Of a stretch of 22,240 bases of DNA, positions 3,112 through 21,378 are shown in pieces (position 1 is the first letter of the stretch; each line of letters begins with the position of its first letter). Position numbers and translations under genes: made by a program. The stretch is from a virus, in IMG/VR virus record IMGVR_UViG_3300032286_000560, positions 1 through 22,240 of that record, one strand, 5' to 3'. The notes under the pieces were generated by a model. The model saw nothing but the letters and a program-made list of their open reading frames with translations, was not told the origin of the DNA and did no database searches.

Positions 3112-3133
3112 AAAAAAAACCCCCCGAGGGGGG
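3112..3133 (-). terminator. Terminator of the leftward operon
   Basis: On the minus strand a G/C hairpin (six Cs at 3120-3125 against six Gs at 3128-3133) is followed by eight Ts (complement of 3112-3119). It lies seven bases beyond the last leftward gene and five bases past the primase stop, between converging genes. Read in the plus direction it has no T-run, so it should end only the leftward transcript efficiently. Confidence 0.85.
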
Positions 3134-3139
3134 CTAGTG

Positions 3140-3302: not shown

Positions 3303-3500
3303 TCAGTGTTTAATTGTTGGAACCTCATCGTTCTCGAACATCAGAACCCGTTCGACAAAGTCGACAACCTCTCTCATTGGCATACCGGATGATTTAGCCG
3401 CGTGATGCAGCAGCATCACGAGAGAGGGGACAACGTCCCCCAAGCTCTCCCCATCTAGAATCTCTGCGATAGATTCTGAAAGCATTGCTGCTCTACTCAT
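3303..3500 (-). CDS. Small hypothetical helical protein
   Basis: This 65-residue protein is of unknown function. The sequence (MSRAAMLSESIAEILDGESL...) looks wholly helical, with hydrophobic residues spaced as in amphipathic helices and an acidic C-terminal part. ATG at 3500 is preferred because AGGAG stands five bases upstream. A GTG at 3506 would overlap that ribosome site. It follows the VWA gene by eight bases and is presumably co-transcribed with it, so it may be a small partner of the AAA+/VWA module, though nothing in its sequence shows that. Confidence 0.6.
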   Translation of the reverse strand: MSRAAMLSESIAEILDGESLGDVVPSLVMLLHHAAKSSGMPMREVVDFVERVLMFENDEVPTIKH

Positions 3501-3508
3501 TGTCACTC

Positions 3509-4291
3509 CTAAGAAACTTCTTTCAGTATATTGCCAAAGGACTTTGAAGCCATATCCTTTGCATTGTTAACGTTCTCCGCATTGCGAAAGCATTTGGATA
3601 CTTGAGTATCGCCAATGCCAATCGCAATAACCTTGATGCCGCGCTTATCAGCGAATTGCTGCAAGTACTCCATATGCGCGAGGTTGTAGGACTCCGCATC
3701 AGTGAGTACAAAGAACAGCTTTCGCGAGTCTTGCCTGCGGGATAACTCCTCGAGCTTGATGTACACCGCAGAGTAGTCGGGCGTACCGCGCGAAGCTAAC
3801 TCGCACATTGCGCCAAGCTTCGCCGCCGCTTTTGGCAGCGCCTCGCCCCACTGTTTAAACGGGATGAACTCGATGCGCTGGACCGCGACGCCGGGTTCGC
3901 TGCTCGTGCCGCCCTTGAACCCGTTAATCTCAAACGATGCGTTGCTCTTGCTGATGATGTTGGCAAGCTGAATCGCAATCGCTTGCGCGACTTGAATGCG
4001 CGACGAACCGGTTTCCACTTCCCAATTCATCGACAGGCTGCAATCAATCAGGATGGAGACCGCAGCGGTGTCGGCCTCCTTGTACTCGCGGCGGGAGAAC
4101 ACGTTCGCCTGCCCCGTAGCAAAGCGGGTGTAGGCTTTGCGGTCGAGGCGACCCGACTCCTCATGGGTCGACCACCCGACAAAGTCCATCGACCGCAGCG
4201 CGGCCAGCAGCTTCGCCCGAGTGGCGGCAATCCCGTGAATCGGATTGTGCAGGATTCTGGCATATGCCTTTTCGCAGTCTGCTCTTTTCAT
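3509..4291 (-). CDS. VWA-domain protein resembling the C-terminal half of CobT
   Basis: This 260-residue protein has a von Willebrand factor A domain with a complete metal-ion-dependent adhesion site: D83-x-S85-x-S87 (DCSLSM), T170 (RGTPDYSA) and D198 (LTDAES). In CobT, BchD and other MoxR-associated proteins this domain holds Mg2+ and links the AAA+ ring to its substrate. ATG at 4291 is preferred over 4303 because GGGAG precedes it with good spacing. The upstream HExxH/acidic-repeat gene stops two bases earlier (TGA at 4296-4294), so the pair is tightly coupled. In bacterial CobT, an N-terminal part, an acidic linker and a VWA domain form one chain. Here the VWA is a separate polypeptide. 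It contains one GTTTAAAC site (3853). Confidence 0.85.
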   Translation of the reverse strand: MKRADCEKAYARILHNPIHGIAATRAKLLAALRSMDFVGWSTHEESGRLDRKAYTRFATGQANVFSRREYKEADTAAVSILIDCSLSMNWEVETGSSRIQVAQAIAIQLANIISKSNASFEINGFKGGTSSEPGVAVQRIEFIPFKQWGEALPKAAAKLGAMCELASRGTPDYSAVYIKLEELSRRQDSRKLFFVLTDAESYNLAHMEYLQQFADKRGIKVIAIGIGDTQVSKCFRNAENVNNAKDMASKSFGNILKEVS

Positions 4292-4293
4292 AA

Positions 4294-5292
4294 TCACTCC
4301 CATATGAATTTGAAGGTTGTCGGGGTGCCTGCCGTTGGTCGCGGTTCGTCACCCGTATCTAACGCGCTGCGGAATCGCATCATTTCCCGGCTAAGGTCGG
4401 GCTCGATATCGCGTTCGTCCTTGATGCCCGGTTCGTCGCCCTCAGTAGGGTCACCTGCGGAATCGCCATCAGCAGGGTCGCCATCTTCGCCGTCGCCGTC
4501 GCCATCCTCAGCGGGGTCACCCTCGTCGGCGGGGTCACCCTCAGCGGGGTCGCCGTCAGTGGTATCACAAGTGTTACCCTCAGCAGGGTCGCCATCGTCG
4601 GCAGGGTCACCCGCATCGTCGCCAGCGTCATCACCCGCATCGTCGCCGGCATCCTTGAGTGCGTTTAAACTGCCAAGCAACTCGATTGCAATCTGGACAA
4701 TCTCCGCAGTCGACTTCGCCTTGTGCGCTTTACGCAGGGCAACCTCCATCGGCACCTTGTACTTCGATTTACCCAGAACCGGGGCCAACGCAATCTTGTA
4801 CCCGTTCATGCGTCGACCCTCGACTGCCAGTTGAAAGGCGAGGTTATCGAAGTCATCCGGGTCAACGTACTTGCCTCCCATCATTTCGTTAATGAGATTC
4901 TCAAACAATGCAGATGCATTGCCTGCGATGCCGGACTCGATAACCTTGCGCTCGATGCGCGGGTCCTCGAGCCCGTTAATCAGCCGGCACAGAACGGCGT
5001 TGCCACGGTGAACGTCCCATGGTTCGTTGTCGGTAAACCATGCGTGACCGAGTTCGTGCAGCACCATGCCAATGAACTTGGGCATCAGCACCTTGGGCAC
5101 CTCTCCGTTGTCGTCGATGTTGGGGAAGCGGAAGGTCGCATCGACCATCCGAGTGTTGCCGAGAACTTCGAACTTAATCGAGGCCCCGGTTCCATACCAT
5201 TGGAAGTTCAACTCGCTGAACCACCATTGCGAGGATTTGAACACCCGCTCGAGCGTGGTGACCACGCCGCGTTTAAACTCTGAACCAAGCAT
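4294..5292 (-). CDS. HExxH metallopeptidase-like protein with Asp-rich repeat tail (CobT N-terminal half-like)
   Basis: The protein has 332 residues. The N-terminal domain has HELGH (79-83), a zinc-metallopeptidase signature, and a downstream LEDPRIE (108-114) that resembles the 'ED.R(I/V)E' element of CobT/NorD-like and DUF2201-type proteins. Residues about 214-288 form a low-complexity acidic tail built from repeats of the GDPAEGD/AGDDAGD type. The last 44 residues return to normal composition. CobT also has an acidic stretch between its N-terminal and VWA regions. ATG at 5292 is chosen because GGAGG lies just before it and overlaps the end of the AAA+ gene (stop at 5296-5294). An upstream start at 5343 would lie inside that gene. 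Whether it cleaves peptides or only scaffolds the VWA protein cannot be told. It carries GTTTAAAC at 4663 and 5271. Confidence 0.8.
   Translation of the reverse strand: MLGSEFKRGVVTTLERVFKSSQWWFSELNFQWYGTGASIKFEVLGNTRMVDATFRFPNIDDNGEVPKVLMPKFIGMVLHELGHAWFTDNEPWDVHRGNAVLCRLINGLEDPRIERKVIESGIAGNASALFENLINEMMGGKYVDPDDFDNLAFQLAVEGRRMNGYKIALAPVLGKSKYKVPMEVALRKAHKAKSTAEIVQIAIELLGSLNALKDAGDDAGDDAGDDAGDPADDGDPAEGNTCDTTDGDPAEGDPADEGDPAEDGDGDGEDGDPADGDSAGDPTEGDEPGIKDERDIEPDLSREMMRFRSALDTGDEPRPTAGTPTTFKFIWE
4429..4653 (-). repeat. Tandem degenerate repeat encoding the acidic tail
   Basis: This stretch is made of degenerate short repeats on the theme GGGTCACC/GGGTCGCC + (C)TCAGC(A/G), as read on the plus strand. 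It encodes the Asp-Gly-Asp-Pro-Ala-Glu repeats at residues 214-288 of the overlapping gene. Unit length varies, so slippage or unequal recombination is likely to change its length among relatives. The plus-strand frame across it is an open Ser/Pro shadow frame and not a gene. Confidence 0.8.
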
Positions 5293-5293
5293 T

Positions 5294-6652
5294 TCAACCT
5301 CCAAGTGCTTTATTGAAACTGGCCTCGTCAATCGAGGCCACATAGATACCCTCGAGTTCGACCGCAGTCTCGGCGGGAAACTTGTTGATGACCGCGCTCT
5401 TATAGGCGCGGTTCACCTTGACCCCCGCCTTCACCGCATCGGCCCAAGCAAACAACTGCCGCAGGCTTGGTGCCTGCGTGAGCAGCCCGTCGCGGGCTTT
5501 CTCCCGTGCGATGTTCAGTAGGTCGACCATCATCACCACCGCGTTAGCGGGCAACCCGCTAACCTTCGCGACGAGGTCCGTTTCCTGCTCGCGTGGCAGG
5601 TAATTGAACTCGAAGGTGTAGGAAAAGCGGTCGATGAAAGCGGTCGACTGAACCCGCACCCCGGCGAAGTTGCCCGAGGCGTCGCCGTGTCCGTTGCTGT
5701 TATCGGCAACCATAAACACAACATGCGGCGCAACCGGGATGCGCTCGCCCGTCTCCGAGATAACAATCGCACGGTCAGCGGTGCGCTCGCACACTGCGTG
5801 TAGCGAAGCAATCGCCTGAGCCCGCGCAAACCCAATCTCATCGAGCAAGACAATCGCACCGGGGTGCGTGATTGCCTTGACCAGCGAACCGGGAGACCAA
5901 GTCACCGACCCGTCGGTGATGGTGTTCGCCCCGATAAACTCCGAGCGTTCGGCGGACTCGTCGAAGTTAATGCGGAACAGCTTGCGACCCAAGCGATTAG
6001 CAAGCTGTTTTGCAAACTCGGTCTTGCCGGTGCCGCGCTCGCCGGCCAGCCACATGTTGTGGGGCAGTGGGTTGGAGAGGGCGCACAGTGCCTCGTGCAG
6101 AATCTCCGGGTCCCACCGGTACTCAGCATTCGCCTTGGGCGCTTCCGGGTCACCCCAATACTCGACCAGCATGGCCGAGAAGTCGGTGCGCCCGTACCGG
6201 GTGAAGCCGGCGAACAGTTCGCCCGCAGGTTTCAGGGTCCGCGCAGGCGGCATCGCGTTCGCAATCTCAGTCACAATCTCAGGTGCGGTAACCGATTTAA
6301 ACGCAGAGAACGCAGCCGACACTGCGCGGGCAACCTCGGATGCGACCGCGCCCGCATCAACCTTGGGCACCGCAGCCAGCTTCGCATCAACCTCAGCGGC
6401 TTGCCGGGTCACCGTTGCAGCGAGCGCAGCGGTGGTTGCGTGTAGGTCCTGCATGGTTTTGGCGATGCCCGAATCAACCACGGGCTCAGGCTCCACCGTG
6501 CACGCTTTAATTTCCTCGAAGGTGATTCGCCCATCGGCAATCATCCTGCTAAGAACGTTGCATGCTGCGCCCTTGTCAGTGGTGGGCGTCATACGCAACT
6601 TAACTAGCGCTGCGTTCAAGGTACGCAGCGGGAGCAGTGCAAGCTCTTTCAT
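5294..6652 (-). CDS. CobS/MoxR-family AAA+ ATPase
   Basis: This 452-residue protein has an alpha-helical, Ala-rich, probably coiled N-terminal region (about 60-120) and a MoxR/CobS-type AAA+ module: Walker A GERGTGKT (204-211), Walker B IVLLDEIG (267-274), sensor-1 ADNSN (316-320), arginine-finger DRF (341-343) and a sensor-2-like SLRQL (396-400). Such ATPases form hexameric rings that work with VWA partners to remodel proteins or insert metals; CobS with CobT drives cobalt insertion by CobN. Here the genes for an HExxH protein and a VWA protein follow at once, which supports a CobS-CobT-like complex. No CobN-like subunit is visible, so a cobaltochelatase role is doubtful. GGAGG precedes the ATG. 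The name CobS should be read as fold similarity only. Confidence 0.88.
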   Translation of the reverse strand: MKELALLPLRTLNAALVKLRMTPTTDKGAACNVLSRMIADGRITFEEIKACTVEPEPVVDSGIAKTMQDLHATTAALAATVTRQAAEVDAKLAAVPKVDAGAVASEVARAVSAAFSAFKSVTAPEIVTEIANAMPPARTLKPAGELFAGFTRYGRTDFSAMLVEYWGDPEAPKANAEYRWDPEILHEALCALSNPLPHNMWLAGERGTGKTEFAKQLANRLGRKLFRINFDESAERSEFIGANTITDGSVTWSPGSLVKAITHPGAIVLLDEIGFARAQAIASLHAVCERTADRAIVISETGERIPVAPHVVFMVADNSNGHGDASGNFAGVRVQSTAFIDRFSYTFEFNYLPREQETDLVAKVSGLPANAVVMMVDLLNIAREKARDGLLTQAPSLRQLFAWADAVKAGVKVNRAYKSAVINKFPAETAVELEGIYVASIDEASFNKALGG

Positions 6653-6673: not shown

Positions 6674-7234
6674 TTATCGCGTGAACGTGGTGCCATCGTT
6701 GGGGCACTCAGGCAAACCCAAGCTTGCCCATTTCTCGGTGAGTCGAATGGTGTACCCACACGCAGGGCACCATGCCTTAATGAGGCGGGTCGACTGAACC
6801 TTGCGGACCAGCCCAACGTTCAGCGCCCCGTGCGGGTACGGGCCAATCGCCTCCACGATAGGTCCGAAGTTCTCGCGAAACGCCTGCCCCGCAACGGTCG
6901 CGGTCGCCTTGCCCTCGAGCCACAGCGCCCGGATAACCCGGACGAACTCTCCCTTGTGGCCGCAGCCGGGGGTCGCAGCATGAGCAAGCTCGTGGACCAG
7001 AATCGCCGCAGCCTCCATGGGTTCCGCAATCACGGGCGAGATAAGAATCTCGTTAAACCCGTCAGCGCTGGCGTCGGGAGCCCAATGCTCACCGATTGCC
7101 TTATTCAGGGTCCGAGCTTTCTGCGAGGGAAACCCGCAGGTGACTCGAATCTTTTCCGGGAGCGGCGCGTTAATCGCCGCGAACATTGGCCGCAACTCGG
7201 CGACCAATTCATTGAGCCACTCTTCACGATTCAT
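6674..7234 (-). CDS. SprT-like zinc metalloprotease
   Basis: This 186-residue protein contains HELAH (81-85) and a third metal ligand H93 (GCGHKGEF), the pattern of SprT/Spartan-type proteases. A C-terminal zinc-ribbon remnant follows: CPAC (156-159) and a single CP at 177-178, so the second half of the ribbon has only one cysteine. SprT-like proteins in eukaryotes degrade DNA-crosslinked proteins; phage members are of unknown role. ATG at 7234 is preferred over the in-frame start at 7264, because GGAG lies just upstream and the preceding small membrane gene ends three bases before it (TAA at 7239-7237). It opens the block of large genes leading into the AAA+ ATPase 21 bases downstream, so it may serve the same process. 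Confidence 0.8.
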   Translation of the reverse strand: MNREEWLNELVAELRPMFAAINAPLPEKIRVTCGFPSQKARTLNKAIGEHWAPDASADGFNEILISPVIAEPMEAAAILVHELAHAATPGCGHKGEFVRVIRALWLEGKATATVAGQAFRENFGPIVEAIGPYPHGALNVGLVRKVQSTRLIKAWCPACGYTIRLTEKWASLGLPECPNDGTTFTR

Positions 7235-18846: not shown

Positions 18847-19388
18847 TTGCAACAAGCATTGACGGTTCTAATTCGACGCTTGATCTGCTATCGACGCTGC
18901 TTGCTGACCCGACTGTTTATGCTGATAAGCTCAAAGCGCTGACCGACGCCACTGCTGAGAATAAAAAGTATGTGGAGTTGGTTGGCCCTGCTTCGGAGAT
19001 TTTAGCTACTCGGGCGCAGGCGGACGCAGACCGCGCAGCGGCTGCTCAAGCGTTGGCTGATGCTAAAGCACAGGCAGATAAGATTGTTGGGGATGCTCAC
19101 GCAAACGCTGCGGGAATTCTTGCAGATGCACAGGGTCAAGCCGACACTTTAGTTGCACAAGCTAAAGCTCAAAAAGATGAGTCTGACGCGGTGTTGGCGC
19201 AGTCTAAAGCATCTCTAGCTAATGTTAAACGAGCAGAAGCAGAAGCTAAGGCCGCGACCGCAGCGGCTAATGTGCAGGCTCAAAACCTAGCGACAGAGCA
19301 AGCAAAAACCGAAGCGCTGCAAGCAGAAGTAGCAGCAACAAAAGCAGCGTTACTGGCAAAGACGAAAGCCTTCATTGAAGGGTTGTAA
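18843..19388 (+). CDS. Ala-rich coiled-coil protein
   Basis: The protein has 181 residues. After about 50 ordinary residues, nearly all the rest (about 53-175) is a charged, Ala-rich heptad-like helix (ATRAQADADRAAAAQALADAK and onward, ATP-synthase-b-subunit style). Long trimeric or dimeric coiled coils are common in phage fibres, tail needles and assembly chaperones. It is coupled on both sides: ATGA with the upstream gene and TAATG with the downstream fibre-like gene. That suggests a fibre-associated or fibre-assembly role. No other evidence of function. Confidence 0.65.
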   Translation: MIATSIDGSNSTLDLLSTLLADPTVYADKLKALTDATAENKKYVELVGPASEILATRAQADADRAAAAQALADAKAQADKIVGDAHANAAGILADAQGQADTLVAQAKAQKDESDAVLAQSKASLANVKRAEAEAKAATAAANVQAQNLATEQAKTEALQAEVAATKAALLAKTKAFIEGL

Positions 19389-20386
19389 TGTCAGTCGTAC
19401 TGCTCACAGAGCCGTTCTCTGGTGGGGGTGGTGGTTCGGGAACAGTAACTTCAGTTGATGTCTCTGGGGGTACTACCGGGCTTACCACATCCGGCGGTCC
19501 CGTTACGACTGCTGGAGTTATCACACTAGGTGGGACACTTAGTGTAGGCAGCGGCGGCACTGGAGCATCAACGCTCACGGGTATCTTAAAGGGTACCGGC
19601 ACAACACCAATAACAATCGCCACAGCGGGGACTGACTATCAAGCCCCCATTACGCTAACCACAACCGGCACGAGTGGCGCTGCTACATTCATAGGCAACA
19701 CGCTTAATATCCCGCAGTACAGCGGTGGCGGTGGGGGTTCTGGGACCGTTACAAGTGTCTCTGTCACCTCAGCAAACGGGCTTGCAGGGACGGTAACCAA
19801 CCCCACTACAACCCCGGCAATCAGCCTTTCCACGACCGTTACAGGGCTGCTCAAGGGTAACGGAACAGCGATTAGCGCGGCTACGTCAGGGACGGACTAC
19901 GCACCCGCTACCTCTGGCACATCAATTCTCTACGGCAACGGATCGGGCGGGTTTTCTAACGTCACGATTGGCTCGGGTTTAAGTTTTGTTACCGGGACGC
20001 TATCGGCTACGGGTGGCGGCGGAGGGACTCCGGGCGGCTCTAACACACAGGTTCAGTTTAACAACTCAGGATCGTTTGGCGGGTCGGCCAACTTTACTTG
20101 GGACGGCACTAACGTACAGTTAGGCGCACAAGGCGCTCTGCGGTTTGCAGATGCGGATAGCAGTAATTATGTAGCGTTTAAATCCCCGGCAACAGTTGCT
20201 ACGAACGTAACTTGGACGCTGCCAAGTGCGGACGGGTCTTACGCGCAGGTGTTGTCTACTAACGGCTCTGGAACTTTGTCTTGGGTCACGCAGAGCGGTG
20301 GCGGCGGCGGAAGCCCTAATCTAGACGGCGGCACGCCAACAAGTAACTACGGCGGTATTACCGCAATCGACGGAGGGACGCCGTAA
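19388..20386 (+). CDS. Gly-rich tail-fibre-like repeat protein
   Basis: The 332 residues are modular. Four Gly5-type linkers (around residues 12-16, 113-117, 209-213, 304-308) separate segments. Two segments start SGTVTSV (17-23, 118-124), and two contain LKG(T/N)GT...GTDY.AP (68-87, 155-173). 'NTQVQFNNSGSFGGSANFTWDGTNVQLG' (219-246) and the C-terminal 'LDGGTPTSNYGG' resemble repeats common in phage tail fibres. It has no enzymatic motif. One base overlaps both neighbours (TAATG). A fibre, whisker or adsorption component is the best reading. The repeats make it a site for recombination and length change. Confidence 0.7.
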   Translation: MSVVLLTEPFSGGGGGSGTVTSVDVSGGTTGLTTSGGPVTTAGVITLGGTLSVGSGGTGASTLTGILKGTGTTPITIATAGTDYQAPITLTTTGTSGAATFIGNTLNIPQYSGGGGGSGTVTSVSVTSANGLAGTVTNPTTTPAISLSTTVTGLLKGNGTAISAATSGTDYAPATSGTSILYGNGSGGFSNVTIGSGLSFVTGTLSATGGGGGTPGGSNTQVQFNNSGSFGGSANFTWDGTNVQLGAQGALRFADADSSNYVAFKSPATVATNVTWTLPSADGSYAQVLSTNGSGTLSWVTQSGGGGGSPNLDGGTPTSNYGGITAIDGGTP

Positions 20387-21378
20387 TGGCTGTTCAGATT
20401 CAGATTAGAAACGGAACTGCCGCGCAGTGGACCTCTGCCAATCCAACGCTTGCTGTTGGTGAGATGGGTGCTGAGACGGATACCGGCAAGTTTAAGATTG
20501 GCACCGGGTCAACAGCTTGGAACAGTTTGGCTTATGCGGCAGTTGGTACTGTTACTTCTGTAGCACAGTCATTTACCGGCGGTATTGTTTCTGTTGGCGG
20601 TTCGCCAATTTCAACAAGCGGCACACTGGCGCTAACGGTTGCAGGTACTTCCGGCGGAGTGCCGTACTTTTCAAGCGGCACGACTTGGGCCTCTTCTGGT
20701 GCACTTGCATCTAACGCTTTGGTTGTTGGCGGCGGCGCTGGCGCGGCTCCTTCAACGGTTACGACTGGCACTGGGGTTGTTACGGCGCTTGGTGTGAACA
20801 CGGGGTCTGCCGGGGCGTTTGTGGTTAACGGCGGTGCGCTTGGAACTCCAAGCTCGGGAACGCTAACCAGCGCCACCGGATTGCCTTTAACGACTGGCGT
20901 TACCGGGGTTCTTCCTGTTGCAAACGGCGGCACAAACGCAAGCGCTGCTGGTATCACTGCATTCAATAACATTACGGGCTACACGGCATCCGGCGCTACT
21001 GGAACGACCAGTACCAATTTGGTGTTCTCGACCACGCCGACGCTGACTAATCCAACGGTTACGAACTACGTCGAAACTTCTTATGTAAACACTGCTGGCA
21101 CATCCGTAACGATTGATTTAGCAAACGGCACATTCCAGCGATTTACGATCTCTGGGGGCAACGCAACCATCACCATGCCTACGGCGGTTGCTGGCAAGAG
21201 CTTTATCTTGATTTTGACGCAGGACACCAGCTCACGCACAGTGACTTGGACAACGGTTGTTTGGCCGTCTGCTACCGCACCAACGATCAGCACCGGGTCA
21301 GGTAAGCGCGATATTTTCTCGTTCTTCTCTGACGGCACAAGCTGGTTTGGCGCCACTATCGGACAGAATTTCGCATAA
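20386..21378 (+). CDS. Tail-fibre-like protein with Mtd-type N-terminal domain
   Basis: This 330-residue protein has residues 3-50 (QIQIRNGTAAQWTSANPTLA... to KFKIGTGSTAWNSLAY) matching the short N-terminal module of the major tropism determinant and many phage fibres. Then GTVTSV (54-59) repeats the module found twice in the previous gene. There follow Thr/Ser/Gly-rich fibre-repeat segments ('GVLPVANGGTNAS', 175-186) and a compact beta C-terminal domain (about 228-330, 'ATITMPTAVAGKSFILILTQDTSSRTVTW'). It is coupled by TAATG to both neighbours. It probably forms part of the host-recognition fibre. No diversity-generating reverse transcriptase or template repeat is seen in the window. Confidence 0.72.
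   Translation: MAVQIQIRNGTAAQWTSANPTLAVGEMGAETDTGKFKIGTGSTAWNSLAYAAVGTVTSVAQSFTGGIVSVGGSPISTSGTLALTVAGTSGGVPYFSSGTTWASSGALASNALVVGGGAGAAPSTVTTGTGVVTALGVNTGSAGAFVVNGGALGTPSSGTLTSATGLPLTTGVTGVLPVANGGTNASAAGITAFNNITGYTASGATGTTSTNLVFSTTPTLTNPTVTNYVETSYVNTAGTSVTIDLANGTFQRFTISGGNATITMPTAVAGKSFILILTQDTSSRTVTWTTVVWPSATAPTISTGSGKRDIFSFFSDGTSWFGATIGQNFA

Follow-up and report, generated by a model that had tools for sequence, protein, structure and literature searches.

A CobT divided between two genes beside a CobS-like ATPase in a phage operon, probably mislabeled as a vitamin B12 module

Are the cobS- and cobT-like genes of viruses correctly described as vitamin B12 genes? Phage cobS and cobT have been listed as B12 auxiliary genes, and the label "peptidase" given to cyanophage cobT has been called a mistake (PMC8651126, PMC9503304). 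We have addressed this question for virus record IMGVR_UViG_3300032286_000560, the whole 22,240 bases of which were analyzed and are referred to here as the window, and in which an operon on the minus strand encodes a CobS-like AAA+ ATPase, a protein with an HExxH motif and an Asp/Gly/Pro-rich tail, and a VWA protein with a complete metal-ion-dependent adhesion site (MIDAS). All three open reading frames (ORFs) are present as described in a first-pass annotation of this DNA, and their layout is beyond chance, recurring in every related viral contig that is open to judgement. On balance we favor the view, which we regard as somewhat probable, that the products form an ATP-driven protein-remodeling motor of the CobS-CobT/NorQ-NorD kind that serves the phage's own purpose and is not a B12 enzyme.

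The tight coupling of the three genes noted in the first-pass annotation is borne out, with 1 nucleotide between the CobS and HExxH ORFs and, at the junction between the HExxH and VWA genes, either a 10-nucleotide overlap (VWA start at ATG 4303) or a gap of 2 nucleotides past the HExxH stop (ATG 4291). The second of these starts is the better supported one because the sequence GGGAG lies 5 nucleotides upstream of it, just as GGAGG precedes both the CobS and the HExxH genes. A sequencing or assembly frameshift, or programmed frameshifting within one continuous gene, might be suspected from the displaced frame of the VWA gene relative to the HExxH ORF in the window and from the closeness of the junction to low-complexity DNA. 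We therefore note that, among 80 viral contigs encoding the HExxH N-terminal part (45-79% identity; several are close relatives, and counts are not independent), the VWA domain has its own gene in all 55 that extend at least 900 bases downstream and can be judged, 53 of these being identified by pattern search and two (L021 and L077) from the ORF list, in which apparent exceptions were settled by reading frames. Moreover, the VWA gene lies in frame 0, 1 or 2 relative to the HExxH gene in 14, 18 and 30 contigs, respectively. With all three frames in use at the junction and 55/55 contigs split, a frameshift error is ruled out and programmed frameshifting is very improbable. A conserved C-terminal tag ahead of the HExxH stop and ribosome-binding-like sequences at both starts also speak against this explanation, which taken as a whole is scarcely conceivable. 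Gene order and orientation are kept across 81 records, with CobS present in all 81, an SprT-like gene next to CobS in 75, the terminase small subunit in 69, a primase/helicase in 49 and a small ORF in 39. The contigs thus represent a single clade of phages in which the operon is fixed.

The annotation had also proposed that the HExxH protein is the front part of a CobT broken after its acidic linker, and profile comparisons agree. The phrog_1576 profile, which covers a single-chain viral protein over 729 positions, aligns with the HExxH protein at positions 49-135 (E=1e-4) and with the VWA protein at positions 467-718 (E=5e-15). In addition, the family of N-terminal halves (alignment A2, 49 sequences) matches the N-termini of four single-chain phage CobTs at an hhalign probability of 99.4% over 217 columns; these phage N-termini match cellular CobT at 97.4%, and the N-terminal halves merged with the four phage CobTs match cellular CobT at 88%, with controls using unrelated domains reaching at most 0.7%. 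As judged from these alignments, the HExxH protein corresponds to a viral CobT N-terminal domain that has been detached from its VWA domain. It gave no Pfam match of any kind at E values up to 1, including PF06213, the CobT N-terminal family that is matched by the single-chain phage relatives T5S1, CRP-810 and SSU5. The lack of any such match also leaves a relationship to DUF2201 (PF13203/PF09967), which the first-pass annotation had entertained, without support. Searches of 84,980 bacterial and archaeal genomes by a pattern method revealed no relative of the HExxH N-terminal half, and zero records in the phage collection matched the protein.

The predicted model of this N-terminal domain is very confident (predicted local distance difference test score, pLDDT, 93.9) and, in fold searches, matches predicted phage CobT/VWA proteins and the 355-residue protein R4T663 of the virus HHTV-2. 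The HExxH and LED...E motifs fall within its long predicted helices 67-86 and 99-120, and Glu-109, Asp-110 and Glu-114, all invariant in A2, are candidate third metal ligands; the counterpart residues Glu-100, Asp-101 and Glu-105 do not vary among five single-chain phage CobTs. In the contig pair L065 (1462-2484) and L067, HEGLGH, with one inserted residue, replaces HExxH. The acidic linker carries a net charge of -32 across a 73-residue stretch, as compared to family medians of 91 residues and -18. Beyond the linker, the tag consensus was derived from 56 distinct aligned C-termini, the copy in the window ending FKFIWE, and its conservation makes it a plausible docking peptide.

The first-pass annotation had associated the peptidase-like motif with the split layout, which it thought unusual, but all of the complete single-chain phage CobTs that we examined have the motif, the cyanophage "peptidase" proteins included. 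Thus, the HExxH and LED...E pair is found in the single-chain CobTs of T5S1, CRP-810, Mae-Yong1326-1 and SSU5 and in the S-PM2 "peptidase", and contigs with a complete gene or N-terminus have HExxH in 27/27 SSU5-like and 78/78 cyanophage single-chain proteins, one further SSU5-like contig that ends inside the motif being outside the 27. These counts show that HExxH does not distinguish split from single-chain viral CobTs. HHTV-2 gp02 has HEVQH at this motif. Cellular CobT, in contrast, reads DS(M/V/I)AL at the site, with HExxH in 0 of 102 parsed proteins, many of them from loci of closely related species and so not independent, and none of the further canonical cellular CobTs that were inspected has HExxH there. 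Even the T5S1 phage CobT, which aligns end to end with the cobaltochelatase CobT 9uka_G (phmmer, E=4e-29), differs from it in this respect, HExxH being replaced in 9uka_G. Because single-chain phage CobTs have the motif and canonical cellular CobTs do not, motif comparison identifies HExxH as a feature of viral CobT and not of the split. The intact viral HExxH...LED site points away from the view that the "peptidase" label is a mistake, and the contrast with cellular proteins makes the role of phage CobST testable by one point mutant.

Six weakly scoring bacterial matches to PF06213 were read individually, and two have HExxH at the right place while four do not. The two positive cases are divergent CobT-like genes (L220, 6088-8283; L221, 5417-7309) lying near phage-type primases of the phrog_510 type in bacterial genomes, and they are probably part of mobile elements or prophages. 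Divergent bacterial CobT-like proteins in L217, L218 and L219 have an adjoining MoxR gene, a low PF06213 score and no HExxH at the CobT site, and may represent non-B12 MoxR-VWA pairs. A scan with the CRP-810 CobT found no relatives.

The other two proteins of the trio have the features of a NorQD-like pair, namely a MoxR ATPase with CbbQ_C and a VWA fold of the MoxR-partner type. In the CobS-like protein, CbbQ_C scores 28.7 bits against a Pfam cut-off of 20.6 and AAA_5 is likewise above its cut-off; the Walker B sequence is IVLLDE, and the sensor-1/arginine-finger region contains VADN...FIDRF and PSLRQL. Relatives in the PDB include NorQ (9qhd) and CobS (9ujv), and these similarities place the ATPase in the CobS/NorQ/CbbQ group of MoxR-family AAA+ proteins. 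CobT_C on the VWA protein scores 24.6 bits against a cut-off of 21. The MIDAS is made up of Asp-87, Ser-89, Ser-91, Thr-174 and Asp-202, all of which are invariant in 35 VWA homologues except Thr-174, which is conserved in at least 90%. The AlphaFold model of the VWA protein (pLDDT 84.5) has as its best match the VWA domain of NorD in NorQD (9qhd_G, E=1.2e-11); NorD chains from NorQ complexes take the first five places among the PDB matches, with Midasin coming next, and this modeled fold, like the sequence, assigns the protein to the MoxR-partner type of VWA. Residues 40-75, which precede the VWA core, are conserved but poorly modeled.

These assignments bear on the B12 question in both directions. 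Liu et al. 2021 proposed that viral CobST use host CobN (PMC8651126), and reports on Mae-Yong1326-1 and CRP-810 take a B12 role for granted, so that the viral CobS and split CobT might join host CobN and, in the infected cell, increase the insertion of cobalt for cobalamin. Homology to CobST, the CobT_C match and the fact that NorQD, a close structural relative, inserts metal are all consistent with such an auxiliary metabolic module. Nevertheless, we consider this explanation rather unlikely. The N-terminal domain has a metallopeptidase motif, which is missing from the canonical cellular CobTs examined, the CobS-like protein scores only 58.6 bits against the CobS equivalog cut-off of 558.55 (TIGR01650), and its operon partner is an SprT-like protein rather than a cobalamin gene. 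Moreover, as reported for the window in the first-pass annotation, no CobN-like subunit is seen, there being none in 29 searched records (several of them fragments), and no large subunit of ribonucleotide reductase (RNR) was found in 26 records, which are mostly fragments. The earlier suggestion of a remodeling motor in place of a B12 enzyme is therefore favored by the HExxH contrast, the low equivalog score and the lack of CobN and RNR, although it stops short of proof, and to speak of a "phage vitamin B12 gene", as is usual, is probably a mistake.

How might such a motor operate? We propose that the CobS-like protein would form a hexameric ring on which the VWA protein docks, capturing a target by means of its MIDAS, and that the HExxH protein would rejoin this complex non-covalently through its C-terminal tag, which is carried on the flexible acidic linker and might dock on either VWA or CobS. 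The HExxH/LED...E site would bind metal and would cut or hold the target opened by the motor, the SprT-like protein perhaps being the second protease of the operon. NorQD is a remodeling and metal-insertion motor in which the VWA finger of NorD occupies the ATPase pore, and NorQ has been proposed to stretch the linker joining the N-terminal and VWA domains of NorD (PMC13036017). Unlike in that proposal, the split would mean that force is not transmitted along a continuous chain of N-terminal domain, linker and VWA domain. The natural split thus tests the continuous-linker-stretching model, since the gene set is kept across the clade even though linker and VWA domain belong to separate chains.

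It is possible, though we hold this only tentatively, that the HExxH domain is structural or merely metal-binding, without proteolysis, and that the complex is a metallochaperone or remodeling factor for one target, as are NorQD and CbbQO. Both of these systems function without a protease, the same domain is kept in cellular CobT without HExxH, and NorD is the best match to the VWA model. The invariance of the two His residues, the Glu and the LED...E motif across very divergent viral lineages, however, suggests catalysis or tight metal binding over structure alone. Viral CobST overall might also be a distinct and widespread class of ATP-driven metalloproteases rather than a B12 set, in which a MoxR/VWA motor opens the target and an HExxH domain, which cellular CobT would have lost or let degenerate, cuts it; in the present clade the protease would have become a separable subunit that docks by its C-terminal tag, beside a second, SprT-like protease. 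This generalization is doubtful at present.

Several points weigh against the remodeling motor that we favor. Comparisons of sequence and structure support homology, conservation and gene layout, whereas activity, metal binding, proteolysis, assembly of the complex and the target are matters that we infer. The peptidase assignment is drawn from HExxH and the conserved LED...E, which offers a candidate third ligand; a PDB fold search with the N-domain model gave nothing at E <= 0.001, its weak matches including some metallopeptidases that were not used. Direct comparison of the N-terminal halves with cellular CobT by hhalign is not significant (0.2%), so that phage intermediates are needed for the link. 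Finally, because the records are mostly incomplete fragments, the absence of CobN and RNR is weak evidence, and the host could provide CobN.

Conflict systems built from a MoxR-vWA pair and a third protein have also been described (PMC7159879), and the phage operon might encode a conflict or anti-host system of this ternary type, in which the HExxH protein would act as effector. We think this improbable. The PADLOC analysis of the window gave weak generic ATPase matches only, the match to the MoxR-domain model bpMoxR is weak and under its Pfam cut-off, and the published systems, although they likewise combine MoxR, VWA and a third protein, have other third components or effectors. In addition, the genes occupy the same genomic location throughout the clade instead of varying, and look like a core function.

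Although the first-pass annotation regarded the split layout as less usual, it is not unprecedented, since the cobT of HHTV-2 was reported in 2021 to be split, with the vWA domain in its own ORF (Liu et al. 2021, PMC8651126). In that virus CobT likewise occupies two ORFs (gp02, the HEVQH protein, and gp03, the VWA protein), the first half having HExxH and an acidic tail, and a 355-residue protein of gp02 length is a fold match to our N-terminal half (E=2.9e-3). We also considered gp09 as the N-terminal half, but it is without HExxH and gp02 fits instead. HHTV-2 is, however, an archaeal virus with far diverged sequence, and its AAA+ gene (gp10) lies about 3 kb downstream of the CobT halves, past six other genes, whereas that in the window directly precedes them. 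The single-chain viral CobTs with CobS, as found in SSU5 of Salmonella, CRP-810 of Roseobacter, T5S1, Mae-Yong1326-1 of Microcystis and cyanophage S-PM2 ("peptidase"), share the domains, HExxH, LED...E, acidic linker, MIDAS and CobS neighbor, but are one polypeptide, and an SprT-like relative was not found in the surrounding stretches. Aerobic cobaltochelatase CobNST (CobT 9uka_G, CobS 9ujv) has homologous AAA+ and VWA components, and a related N-terminal part when phage intermediates are used; it differs in its single-chain CobT without HExxH, its CobN subunit and its proven B12 role. NorQ-NorD (9qhd and relatives) shares the MoxR ATPase and VWA partner, and provides the best structural match to the VWA half, but NorD is one chain, with a linker proposed to stretch, and an HExxH partner is not described. 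Viral cobST, which is common, and one split viral cobT (HHTV-2) are therefore already published. As far as our searches reach, what is new is a bacteriophage-like clade with a fixed split, its SprT-like partner, the C-terminal tag and a systematic contrast of HExxH in viral and cellular CobT.

The operon extends beyond the trio, the minus-strand order being SprT-like protein, CobS-like ATPase, HExxH protein, VWA protein, small ORF and terminator-like hairpin, with genes that almost abut; the first-pass annotation had overlooked the SprT-like gene and the small ORF, as well as the hairpin and the likely second start of the VWA gene. Coordinates are collected in Table 1.

Table 1. Features of the split CobT operon in the window
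Feature	Position	Strand	Basis or remark
SprT-like protein with HELAH and a Cys zinc-ribbon-like C terminus; opens the operon	6674..7234	-	GTG 7264 possible as alternative start
CobS-like MoxR/CbbQ-type AAA+ ATPase, 452 residues	5294..6652	-	phrog_249, E=6e-43; Pfam AAA_5 and CbbQ_C
Walker A, GERGTGKT, residues 204-211	6020..6043	-	Sequence; near-invariant in 81 homologues
HExxH protein: N-terminal half of split viral CobT, acidic linker and C-terminal tag	4294..5292	-	
HELGH motif, residues 79-83	5044..5058	-	His-79, Glu-80 and His-83 invariant in the 49-sequence alignment A2
LEDPRIE motif, residues 108-114	4951..4971	-	Invariant in A2; part of LINGLEDPRIE, residues 104-114
Acidic Asp/Gly/Pro linker, about residues 214-290 (77 residues)	4423..4653	-	
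Conserved C-terminal tag past the linker	4297..4419	-	Consensus GRxvEPxxFIxxEL...RP..KP...F-W
VWA protein: C-terminal half of split viral CobT	3509..4303	-	Likely start ATG 4291; Pfam CobT_C
MIDAS DxSxS (DCSLS), residues 87-91 from ATG 4303	4031..4045	-	Sequence
Small downstream ORF	3303..3500	-	ATG 3500 (GTG 3506 possible); same-position homologues in 39/81 records
Terminator-like hairpin, then T run	3118..3135	-	Could end the operon

The SprT-like protein matches phrog_6361 (E=1e-40) and is so named because its phage homologues are annotated as "SprT-like protease", the Pfam SprT-like model scoring 13.4 bits, under its cut-off of 25.6. It is a second HExxH protein of the operon and looks unrelated to the N-terminal half of CobT; relatives without neighboring CobS or CobT occur in Microbacterium and Dinoroseobacter phages. 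The small ORF is poorly conserved in sequence and gave no convincing family match. The hairpin (3135-3118) is suggestive of an operon end, the scan in which it was found giving 9 terminator-like sites versus 5.5 in shuffled sequence. Elsewhere in the window, on the plus strand at 19388-21378, lie two adjoining Gly/Ser/Thr-rich low-complexity proteins with GTVTSV-like repeats, which are probably structural and tail-fibre-like.

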